Origin: Bernardetiaceae bacterium
GTDB taxonomy: Bacteria; Bacteroidota; Bacteroidia; Cytophagales; Thermoflexibacteraceae
DNA length: 64,000 nucleotides
Direction: 5' to 3'
Assembly: GCA_025056255.1 (NCBI GenBank)
Contig: JANWVT010000003.1
Location: forward strand, 62,001-126,000
The number at the start of each line of letters is the position of its first letter. Position 1 is the stretch's first letter. The position numbers and the translations under genes are program-made. The notes beneath the pieces are model-generated. The model was given only the letters and a program-made list of their open reading frames with translations, was not told the origin of the DNA and made no database searches. Of this stretch, positions 45,324-48,001 are shown one piece after another.

Positions 45324-47210
45324 TTAGTCTATTTGAAACCATTCTAACTTAACAGCTTTAAGCAAATGTTGCACTGAGTATTCATCCTCTGTGGGCATAT
45401 CTAAAATGGTAATATACACGCGCTTAACAATCTGCGCTAAGTCTTCATAGGACAGATGCCGTACGGTTTGGTCAAAATAACCAGCATACTTGGCTGTAAT
45501 AGCTTCCGCTTGGCTGATACATTCTACAATAAACGGATGCTTTTCAGCATAAAGACTTTCTCTGATAGCTTGAACACTTTCTTTGTAGAGAAAATTAACG
45601 GGTAGTTGGTGCAAGACATGTTCAGCAGGACTTCCAGATAGCAAAACAGGAATAGGAAAATATTTACCTTCCGAGGCAATTTGTGAATAAGTGCGTTGTG
45701 CCAATGCTAAGGACTCGTCAAGTTTTCCCAGTACGCCTCCAAAGAGAATAGCTACACGTGGCTTTTCTGACAAACGCCCTACCTCTTTGTCTATCAGATG
45801 GTCTAAGTCGGCAAGCATTTGTTCCATACGCCAAGTATGTTTACCTGTTTTGGCGCGGTCTTGTAGCGAGGCGCGAATGATGTAGGTAAGCGTTTGGGTA
45901 GGATTAAGTCCAATTTCTACCATTTGCTTGAAGATGAGTGAAGTAGGCGACATCCCGGGAATGGTGTTGGGGTCGTGCAGCGAAACCGAGCCATCGGCTT
46001 TAACAAATCCGTCAATGCGGGCACACACACCAAACCGAAGTCCTTCGGCAACAGCTTTCACTTGGCGATGAATTTCGCGCAGTTGCTCCATAGGTACGTC
46101 CACCGGAATGGTTTTGCGGGTAGCCACGCTAAGGTACTTAGAATGAAAGTCGTAAGTTTCCATAGCCGGTGCAATGCCAGTAGGCGGCAAGGCAATCGGG
46201 CGGTCTTCCTCGTCTTGAATAACCCCACAAGAAAACTCTTTGCCTTTAATGAAGGCTTCTATCAGCACCGAAGATTCGCTGTGTACAGAGGTTAGAATAG
46301 CGTAAGTATCTGAATAAGAAAAGTAGTCATCTAATTTTTCCAGTAAATCTTGCGGATGTGCATACACAATACTGCCCTTGTCTATCATAGGGTCGGCTTC
46401 AAACACCAACGGAAAGCCAATGCTTTGCTCTACATTGGTGATGCGTTGCAAATAGGCTTCTTTGGCAACTTGGTCCATAGCTGCCCACTCAGCTTTAGTT
46501 AAGGTGAGGCGGAATAGACATTGTTCAATGGCTTTTTCAAAACTTGTCAAATCGTCTTGTTTAACAATTGCTACCCCTATGGAAGAGCCGCCGTGTGGTG
46601 CTTTCACTACAAAAGGAAGTCCTAAAATGGCTTTTACTCGTTCAAACAAATCTTCATGACTTTCAGCATCCCAAGTAGCTTTGCGGATGGTCATCTGTTG
46701 TTTTTCTACTCCGGTAATGCGTTCAATCAGTTCGTTTTGCAGCGTTTTGTCTATGCCTGCCGCCGAGCCAAAAATACCCGGAGCCGAGTAAGGAATGCCA
46801 TACCACTCTAACAAACCTTGCAAACTACCATCTTCACCCGGCGCACCATGCATGGCAAGAAAGGCAAAGTCAAAATATTTTTTGAATTCTTGTGGCAAAA
46901 TAGGTTGCCCAATGGCATTGGTTAGCTCTATGAGCATGTTGTCGGAAAGTTTGCCCAGCGACTCGACATATACTTTAAACCGCAAGCTTTTTTGGGTTTT
47001 TCTAACAATAGAAACAGGGGGGTAAAAATCTCTAATAGACTGGTAATCAAATATTTGTTTGTTGGTAAGAATAAAATTACCCAAGCTGTCCACAAAAACG
47101 GGAACCGGCTCGAAAAGCGTGCGGTCTAAGTTGTAGAAAACCGTTTTACCGCCTGCAAAAGAAATTTCACGCTCTCGCGAAGGTCCTCCAAAAAAGATTG
47201 CGACTCTCAT
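45324..47210 (-). CDS. ddl: D-alanine-D-alanine ligase, long form with duplicated N-terminal domain
   Basis: ATP-grasp ligase joining two D-Ala for peptidoglycan. The N-terminal domain (FFGGPSREREISFAGG) and ATP-grasp core (FAFLAMHGAPGEDGSLQG, VKAPHGGSSIGVA, EAFIKGKEFSCGV, CARIDGF, then HDPNTIPGMSPTSL) are recognisable. Compared with ordinary Ddl of about 310-360 residues, this one has 628. An insertion of about 80 residues sits within the ATP-grasp domain (about 220-300). From about 480 to the end a second N-terminal-like domain begins with RVAILFGGVLGKLDESLALA, but no second ATP-grasp domain follows. The metal Glu in the usual NEINT motif is Asp here (HDPNT). Activity is likely but the extra parts are unexplained. 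No murC or other mur genes adjoin. Confidence 0.85.
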   Translation of the reverse strand: MRVAIFFGGPSREREISFAGGKTVFYNLDRTLFEPVPVFVDSLGNFILTNKQIFDYQSIRDFYPPVSIVRKTQKSLRFKVYVESLGKLSDNMLIELTNAIGQPILPQEFKKYFDFAFLAMHGAPGEDGSLQGLLEWYGIPYSAPGIFGSAAGIDKTLQNELIERITGVEKQQMTIRKATWDAESHEDLFERVKAILGLPFVVKAPHGGSSIGVAIVKQDDLTSFEKAIEQCLFRLTLTKAEWAAMDQVAKEAYLQRITNVEQSIGFPLVFEADPMIDKGSIVYAHPQDLLEKLDDYFSYSDTYAILTSVHSESSVLIEAFIKGKEFSCGVIQDEEDRPIALPPTGIAPAMETYDFHSKYLSVATRKTIPVDVPMEQLREIHRQVKAVAEGLRFGVCARIDGFVKADGSVSLHDPNTIPGMSPTSLIFKQMVEIGLNPTQTLTYIIRASLQDRAKTGKHTWRMEQMLADLDHLIDKEVGRLSEKPRVAILFGGVLGKLDESLALAQRTYSQIASEGKYFPIPVLLSGSPAEHVLHQLPVNFLYKESVQAIRESLYAEKHPFIVECISQAEAITAKYAGYFDQTVRHLSYEDLAQIVKRVYITILDMPTEDEYSVQHLLKAVKLEWFQID

Positions 47211-47260: not shown

Positions 47261-48001
47261 ATGGCGCAAGAAGTTATCAGAACTGACCAAATATCTAAGC
47301 GCTACGTAATGGGCAGCGAGATTATTCATGCACTCAAATCTATTTCCATTAGCATCTGTCGGGGAGAATACGTAGCTTTCATGGGTCCTTCTGGGTCAGG
47401 AAAATCTACGCTGATGAACATTATCGGCTGCTTAGATACGCCCAGTGGTGGCACTTATATTTTGGCTGGTAAGGACGTGAGCAACATGACTGAAAACGAA
47501 CTTGCAGACATCCGCAACCGCGAAATTGGCTTTGTATTTCAAACTTTTAACCTGTTGCCGCGCTCCACTGCCTTAGAAAATGTGGCTTTACCACTCGTAT
47601 ACGCGGGCTATGGCAAAGCCGAACGCGAAGAGAGAGCCATGCAAGCTCTTATTAGTGTAGGGCTAGGCGACAGAGCTAAACACAAACCCAACGAACTTTC
47701 AGGCGGGCAGCGCCAGCGCGTAGCTATTGCTCGTGCATTGGTCAACAACCCCAGCATTATTCTTGCCGATGAACCTACTGGTAATTTGGACACGCGCACC
47801 TCATATGAAATTATGGAGCTGTTCGACCAACTACACAAGAAAGGAAACACCATTATTGTGGTTACACACGAAGACGACATAGCTCGCTACGCTCATCGGA
47901 TTGTGCGCCTGCGCGACGGACTGATTGAGTCTGATATGCCTAATACGGATATTACTAATCCCACAGAAATGAAAATGGCTCTGGCAGCAAAAGGAAAATG
48001 A
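47261..48001 (+). CDS. ABC transporter ATP-binding protein, LolD/MacB type
   Basis: 246-residue nucleotide-binding subunit. Walker [10 protein letters not shown] is at 42-50, then the Q-loop FQTFNLLPR, the signature [15 protein letters not shown], Walker [13 protein letters not shown] and the H-loop VVTHEDDIA. The [12 protein letters not shown] and [16 protein letters not shown] patterns fit the LolD/MacB/FtsE-like group that works with a separate MacB-type permease. No permease gene is adjacent, so the partner must be elsewhere. The stop overlaps the start of the adenosyltransferase gene by ATGA, an unusual pairing. Confidence 0.92.

Follow-up and report, generated by a model that had tools for sequence, protein, structure and literature searches.

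A probable D-Ala-D-Ala ligase carrying the remnant of a second ligase module in a Bernardetiaceae bacterium

The ddl locus and its protein

The window, by which we mean the whole 64,000-nucleotide stretch analysed, comes from contig JANWVT010000003.1 of a Bernardetiaceae bacterium (assembly GCA_025056255.1). Its ddl open reading frame begins with ATG, runs on the minus strand from 47210 down to 45324 and encodes a protein of 628 residues (Table 1), whereas a plus-strand reading of the same interval meets many stops. Divergent from ddl, on the plus strand at 47261-48001, lies an ABC transporter ATPase gene, which from its sequence we take to be LolD-like. An Rfam scan across the window gave no match at gathering thresholds.

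The 628-residue protein exceeds the gathering thresholds of both Pfam families of D-Ala-D-Ala ligases (Ddls), with 82.5 bits against 34.6 for PF01820 (Dala_Dala_lig_N, residues 2-142) and 106.7 bits against 24 for PF07478 (Dala_Dala_lig_C, best stretch residues 257-445). The three best NCBIfam Ddl models scored below their curated cut-offs (210.3 against 262, 193.3 against 245.65 and 188.9 against 243), which we count against the main explanation given below. The model for the MurC-Ddl fusion (NF011171), a fusion known from Chlamydia, matched weakly at 76 bits against a cut-off of 1015; that protein is also a Ddl joined to another domain, but its partner is MurC rather than a second Ddl.

A first-pass annotation of the sequence had described two similar domains, one opening with RVAIFFGG near residue 2 and the other with RVAILFGG near residue 482. 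The first motif does begin at residue 2; the second is present but starts at residue 485. The second copy, given there as about 150 residues, occupies residues ~480-628 (149 residues), and the remark that no ATP-grasp core follows it holds, in that the frame stops after the copy and ten tandem-B core queries (see below) gave no convincing match over the next 2.4 kb downstream, the best reaching E 0.22. The Pfam scan left the tail without any N-domain stretch. The proposed self-alignment, done by BLASTP of the tail against residues 1-480, gave a marginal likeness (30% over 40 residues, E 0.024), and hence the likeness of the two copies would not stand on the 628-residue protein alone.

Table 1 Features of the ddl locus (positions in the window).
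Feature	Position	Strand	Basis
Whole frame, single-site Ddl plus remnant of a second Ddl	45324..47210	-	ORF reading, Pfam; sole PF01820 match in genome
A-half N-terminal domain, residues 2-142, with Glu13 and HGAPGEDG motif	46785..47207	-	Pfam PF01820; column counts
A-half ATP-grasp core, residues 143-460	45831..46784	-	Pfam PF07478; structural match to solved Ddls, Z ~35 over 1-459
Insertion of ~72-76 residues in A-half ATP-grasp, about residues 233-308, limits estimated	46287..46514	-	Alignment; predicted secondary structure
DPNT, residues 413-416; Asp413 at the Mg-ligand position, Glu in ordinary Ddls	45963..45974	-	Column counts
Helix linking A half to remnant, residues 459-478	45777..45836	-	Predicted structure
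Remnant of B-half N-terminal domain, residues 481-600, constrained, predicted with confidence to fold	45411..45770	-	Profiles, model, dN/dS-type comparison
Tail, residues 601-628 plus stop, site of the lost HGRPGEDG motif and next helix, weakly constrained	45324..45410	-	

Tandem ligases among relatives and loss of the second core

Relatives were sought in 59 genomes, the present one included, with the 628-residue protein and the Ddl N-domain family as queries, after which the open reading frames were read. The relatives with a complete second ligase module that the first-pass annotation had proposed to look for turned up in 29 of these genomes, as tandem Ddls with two modules (halves A and B) in one frame of 839-930 residues once N-terminal extensions were trimmed (raw frames reach 1381). 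Short forms of 550-637 residues, each a single open frame, occur in 19 genomes, our own among them. The others had only an ordinary Ddl (seven genomes), A and B as separate genes (two genomes, G033 and G048; 1.1-1.2 Mb) or no Ddl that we found (two genomes). The genomes with split genes belong to one family of the same order; their A and B genes (L055-L058) lie far apart or on different contigs, and both are kept. A sequencing error or frameshift as the source of the short form is ruled out by its presence as single open frames in these 19 genomes, which include 13 of 13 of its family.

By name, the tandem carriers include Pontibacter, Rufibacter, Hymenobacter, Sporocytophaga and Aureispira, and the short-form carriers Pseudarcicella, Arcicella, Flectobacillus, Dyadobacter, Spirosoma and Flexibacter; Bernardetia was added to the latter by tblastn only, with 94% of the query covered. 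An additional PF01820 gene is absent from all tandem and short-form genomes (the 29 tandem genomes have none beyond the tandem), and in all 13 genomes of its family the short form is the sole PF01820 gene. One short-form genome, G007, also encodes on contig C28 a 314-residue Ddl-like ATP-grasp protein lacking PF01820 (L067), which is possibly another peptide ligase.

In an even sample across the class, 96 of 198 genomes (own included) matched at E <= 1e-40, most through frames of ~860-960 codons. Five candidates for independent short forms outside the order were checked and rejected: the frames of G074, G229, G100 and G117 run into contig ends and that of G234 is an 868-codon tandem. Two further shorter frames, outside these five, are those of G203, with 741 codons, and G185, which is split between two contigs. 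A contig scan with the single 628-residue protein as query yielded no confirmed match; an alignment-based scan matched at least 594 stretches, at least 578 of them relatives, and 80 loci were kept. A search for viral relatives found none. At L113 a tandem-type gene has a frame that ends inside B after 713 codons, which may be an error or a second partial loss. The short-form Ddl of L084, from a record titled Cellulophaga (Flavobacteriaceae), is nearly identical in the tree to that of Flectobacillus (L073), and the record may be misnamed.

Profile comparisons bear on where the tail came from. That of the 628-residue protein scored E 1.4e-28 (89.5 bits) against a tandem-B N-domain profile and 5.7e-6 against an A N-domain profile. 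The first profile test was limited to tails of more than 115 residues, 14 of 19, and in it hhalign matched the 14 remnants to the B N-domain at 99.96% (E 7e-39) and to the A N-domain at 95.7% (E 1e-8). All 33 short-form tails (a 34th row, from the truncated tandem L146, was uncounted) score better against the tandem-B than against the A profile; 31 reach E 7e-5 or better against B, two Spirosoma-like tails (L091 and L093) only 0.005 and 0.03, and the 13 tails of our own family 2.3e-8 or better. The remnants of Spirosoma- and Dyadobacter-like lineages are only 89-111 residues long, with E-values from 1e-11 down to 0.026. An origin of the tail as an internal duplicate of the protein's own N-domain is ruled out, as every one of the 33 tails lies nearer to tandem B. 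A B-half query at E <= 0.001 in the 13 family genomes matched the ddl frame in each and no B core elsewhere.

A quick A-half tree of 84 rows was built from 33 of 35 short forms, 44 of 91 tandems (every second of the 88 left after duplicate removal), two split A halves and five ordinary Ddls. Dropped were L070, L088, L082, L085 and L110, judged duplicates of L014, L060, L027, L028 and L029, and L113 and L146 as incomplete. The 33 short forms make up one side of a branch and the tandems do likewise, with SH-aLRT 95 each (split-gene rows uncounted). When the tree was rooted on the long-branched ordinary Ddls, the short clade was sister to all tandems and not nested among them, a result that we count against our main explanation. 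A tree joining the order's short and tandem rows was 19 log units better (p-AU 0.83), which fits a tandem ancestor whose B core was lost within the order; this grouping was set against 24 tandem rows from other Bacteroidota, none from same-order handles, plus the outgroup, and the joined clade was chosen after the quick tree had been seen, in a tree with long branches. The clade holding the 628-residue protein also holds the short-form Ddls of Spirosoma, Dyadobacter, Arcicella, Flectobacillus and Flexibacter, which, together with that of Bernardetia, have the same architecture and DPNT or a similar motif with PGM. In several of these lineages the remnant is shorter and less conserved than in our protein.

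From these sequence comparisons we conclude that the 628-residue protein is of tandem ancestry and has lost the B core. The first-pass suggestion of a tandem-Ddl fusion that lost half is borne out by the complete tandems, by the closeness of the tail to the B N-domain and by the single clade of short forms. The ancestral Ddl of such a Cytophagales-type bacterium would have been a tandem A-B in one chain, and the clade that includes Spirosoma, Dyadobacter, Arcicella and Flexibacter would have lost the ATP-grasp core of B in its common ancestor, most simply in a single event.

Constraint, fold and role of the remnant

Residues 481-600 were compared with the A half in pairs of genomes (G000 being our own), giving identities of 87 and 87% (G000/G002), 85 and 85% (G000/G003) and 70 and 76% (G000/G001). 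Omega for the remnant against A was 0.074 against 0.088 (G002/G003) and 0.122 against 0.095 (G000/G001), and the remnant stayed at 0.07-0.13 in four pairs with finite dS, most dS values being saturated. At longer distances the remnant changed faster than A, with identities of 66 against 77% (G002/G001), 44 against 57% (G000/G009) and 64 against 82% (G008/G011). We count this faster change and the saturated dS against the main explanation. Residues 601-628 change fastest, with omega 0.53-0.66 in three pairs having dS below 1.

Most substrate motifs of the B-half N-domain have gone. Of ERHIS, the residues E496, R497, H498 and I499 recur in 0-15% of the 13 remnants of the family as against 98-100% of 88 tandem B halves, and the HGRPGEDG columns in 0-23% (Pro606 in 38%) as against, again, 98-100%. 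Ser500 is kept in 85% of the 13 remnants and belongs to a set retained in 77-100% of them (Gly491, Ser500, Pro519, Gly526, Pro537, Asn539, Lys543 and Tyr575). Motif erosion goes further in other short-form lineages, the Spirosoma- and Dyadobacter-like ones included, and this also weighs against the main explanation. Were the tail a decaying leftover without function, the motif losses, the weak constraint on its last 28 residues, the short remnants of the Spirosoma- and Dyadobacter-like lineages and the faster change over distance would all be expected; however, the low omega of the remnant and a domain recognisable in 13 of 13 family genomes make this unlikely.

The model of the 628-residue protein has a pLDDT of 90.9 and a pTM of 0.92. 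The first-pass reading hung on the C-terminal part not being an unrelated fold, and in the model the tail has the strand and helix order of residues 1-136, repeating that of the first domain (strand-helix-strand-strand-helices-strand-helix-strand-helix). The fold search yielded rows over residues 1-460; element order and sequence profiles together suggest that the tail has the Ddl N-domain fold. The model of the tandem protein L079 is confident too (88.8 and 0.89), except that residues 783-798, by our own mapping the omega loop of B, are poorly defined.

A folded remnant of this kind might mimic the partner subunit of a Ddl homodimer, making one chain a half-dimer. PMC6899670 describes Ddls as recurrent dimers whose interface is formed by helices alpha3-alpha5 together with the end of alpha8, and a B half joined to A would make a natural pseudo-partner. 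By our mapping, however, the remnant stops short of alpha5, and its helix alpha4 falls in the weakly constrained tail; as it lacks alpha5, the remnant is unlikely to copy the usual Ddl dimer interface, and we consider such mimicry improbable.

The first-pass annotation had also offered a regulatory domain. Such a tail would adjust the ligase on binding D-Ala or some other small ligand. The constraint on the remnant and the confidently predicted fold of a domain that contributes to substrate binding in Ddls speak for it, but most substrate-binding residues of B's N-domain (ERHIS, HGRPGEDG) are missing, Ser500 being retained, and we think regulation quite improbable. Because most substrate motifs are lost, yet the remnant is constrained and predicted to fold well, a structural role appears likelier than a regulatory one.

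The A-half active site and the probable function

Residues E13, H121, K155, K203, S209/S210, E318, E325, K358 and Y359 are invariant in an 18-row alignment, as are R398, D400, N415, G419 and S424. We take the residue numbers E15, S150, Y216, Asp257, Glu270 and Asn272 used here to be those of E. coli DdlB, with Glu13 equivalent to E15. The E15-S150-Y216 triad is then present as E13, S209 and Y359. Of the Mg ligands, Asp400 and Asn415 are present and Glu270 is replaced by Asp413; the full ligand set is thus incomplete and the protein is a derived variant rather than a canonical Ddl. PMC6899670, on a Burkholderia enzyme, reports for the E. coli structure that Asp262 and Glu275 are in contact with two Mg ions, and by our mapping these residues would be Asp257 and Glu270.

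The Asp-for-Glu change in the NEINT-type motif, seen by the first-pass annotation, is real (the motif reads DPNT), yet it is common to A halves, tandem or short. Column counts over 88 tandem, 33 short and 37 ordinary Ddls, with the same row drops as the tree, gave Asp at the Glu270 position in every A half having a letter there (one short row and two tandem rows have gaps), as against Glu in all B halves and in 37 of 37 ordinary Ddls, which we count against the main explanation. A halves keep Ser150, Tyr216 and Ser281 wherever letters exist; all 88 B halves have Cys, Phe and Thr, respectively, at these positions. The insertion in the first ATP-grasp domain, put earlier at about 80 residues, is also confirmed at a slightly smaller size: the median number of residues between alignment positions 213 and 313 is 93 in tandem A halves, 97 in short A halves and 21 in 37 of 37 ordinary Ddls, hence ~72-76 extra residues. 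Single short-form rows span 35 to 142 residues in this interval.

Thus compared, the protein has in common with DdlA and DdlB (PF01820 plus PF07478) the domain order, the E/S/Y triad, the ATP and substrate residues and, via the match of solved Ddls to residues 1-459 (Z ~35), the fold, and differs from them in the Asp Mg ligand, the lid insertion, the extra C-terminal N-domain and the sub-cut-off NCBIfam scores. The tandem Ddls of Bacteroidia (Cytophagales, Saprospiraceae and others, e.g. L079 of Pontibacter litorisediminis) have in common with it an A half with the long lid insertion, which ordinary Ddls lack, and the Asp, and their B N-domain is the closest relative of its remnant. Only the tandems have a complete second ATP-grasp, with Glu at 270 besides the B-half residues given above. 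The A loop reads TTSGM in the tandems as against TIPGM in our protein.

Eighteen columns of the A half distinguish the tandem from the short forms, seven of them in 412-428, the loop of the Mg site and second D-Ala. At 417-418 short forms have Ile-Pro and tandem A halves Thr-Ser, ordinary Ddls having Ile in 81% and Pro in 100%. Across the 18 columns ordinary Ddls are nearer to tandem A in eight, to short A in five and to neither in five, which counts against the main explanation; as the columns do not favour short A overall, any canonical return is confined to residues 417-418 of this loop. The Ile-Pro pair is a weak hint that the A half was retuned when the B core was lost.

Phe216 of the tandem B halves is, we presume, the counterpart of active-site Phe261 of LmDdl2, the D-Ala-D-Lac ligase of Leuconostoc (1EHI), whose fold matches our A half with Z 34.2. 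According to PMC5996685, Phe or Tyr at one active-site position of Ddls from lactic acid bacteria sets depsipeptide or dipeptide activity, respectively; LmDdl2 has Phe261, like tandem B, whereas the A half of our protein has Tyr and its B core is absent. The Asp-for-Glu enzyme might instead join D-Ala to some other D-amino acid or a hydroxy acid, the cell-wall ligase then being another protein. This would suit the Asp that A halves carry as Mg ligand, and the altered loop residues, but it is very unlikely given the dipeptide-type Tyr (PMC5996685) and the lack of any other PF01820 gene in a genome that also encodes MurF and Alr.

Our own genome (G000) encodes MurF (392.9 bits) and Alr (305.8 bits), and therefore the steps before and after Ddl exist. 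The 628-residue protein is its sole PF01820 gene and the sole match to itself at E <= 1; five other frames pass the PF07478 cut-off lacking a PF01820 match, which we count against the main explanation. At 199863-202259 of contig C63 (L151, L152) the same genome has an 824-codon frame with an Alr domain and a MurF-like stretch, the latter scoring 274.7 bits against a cut-off of 288.6; the separate MurF is on C52. As it is the sole PF01820 gene and sole self-match in a genome with MurF and Alr, the 628-residue protein most likely makes the cell's D-Ala-D-Ala.

Our main explanation, which we consider probable, is that this is a housekeeping D-Ala-D-Ala ligase derived from a tandem ancestor, in which the B core is lost, the A half catalyses and the remnant is structural. 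Judged by sequence comparison, the sole PF01820 gene has an A active site kept apart from the Glu-to-Asp change, and its remnant is constrained. We infer that the A half is active as a D-Ala-D-Ala ligase with Asp413, that the remnant is structural and that the substrate loop of A was retuned when the core of B went. Catalysis would follow ordinary Ddl chemistry, in which ATP converts D-Ala1 to the acyl phosphate and D-Ala2 attacks, with Asp instead of Glu serving as one Mg ligand. The B remnant, most of its substrate-binding residues gone, would persist as a folded domain that packs against the A half and serves a structural purpose.

Ddl is essential for the cell wall and a drug target (D-cycloserine), and its usual description is that of a homodimer with one site per subunit. 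Much of the Bacteroidia has instead a one-chain, two-site ligase with different substitutions in each half, and one clade has dropped a site. We offer tentatively, as less likely than not, the possibility that tandem Ddls are two-site enzymes with specialised halves that are either interdependent or yield different products, the short clade then being a natural deletion experiment in which A was retuned to stand alone. If so, A would be specialised by Asp for Glu270 and the altered D-Ala2 loop, and B by Cys150, Phe216 and Thr281, its Phe resembling that of depsipeptide ligases. Comparison and simple assays could address the reason for the doubling of an essential ligase, the activity of each of the two sites and the ability of Asp to stand in for Glu as Mg ligand.

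A literature search found no account of tandem, fused or half-lost Ddls; it covered open-licence papers, and absence is not thereby proven. The available part of PMC4814524, on vancomycin and thermophile Ddls, has nothing on tandem Ddls, and for the tandem protein no tandem-specific NCBIfam model was among the best 25 of 39 matches. The tandem genes often have a particular neighbour, in that a PASTA-domain-like protein (the domain named by reading the sequence) adjoins ddl on the same strand at 39 of the 80 loci, all 39 being tandem loci (L110 among them) and none short-form; 34 of these neighbours lie downstream and five overlap the ddl frame.
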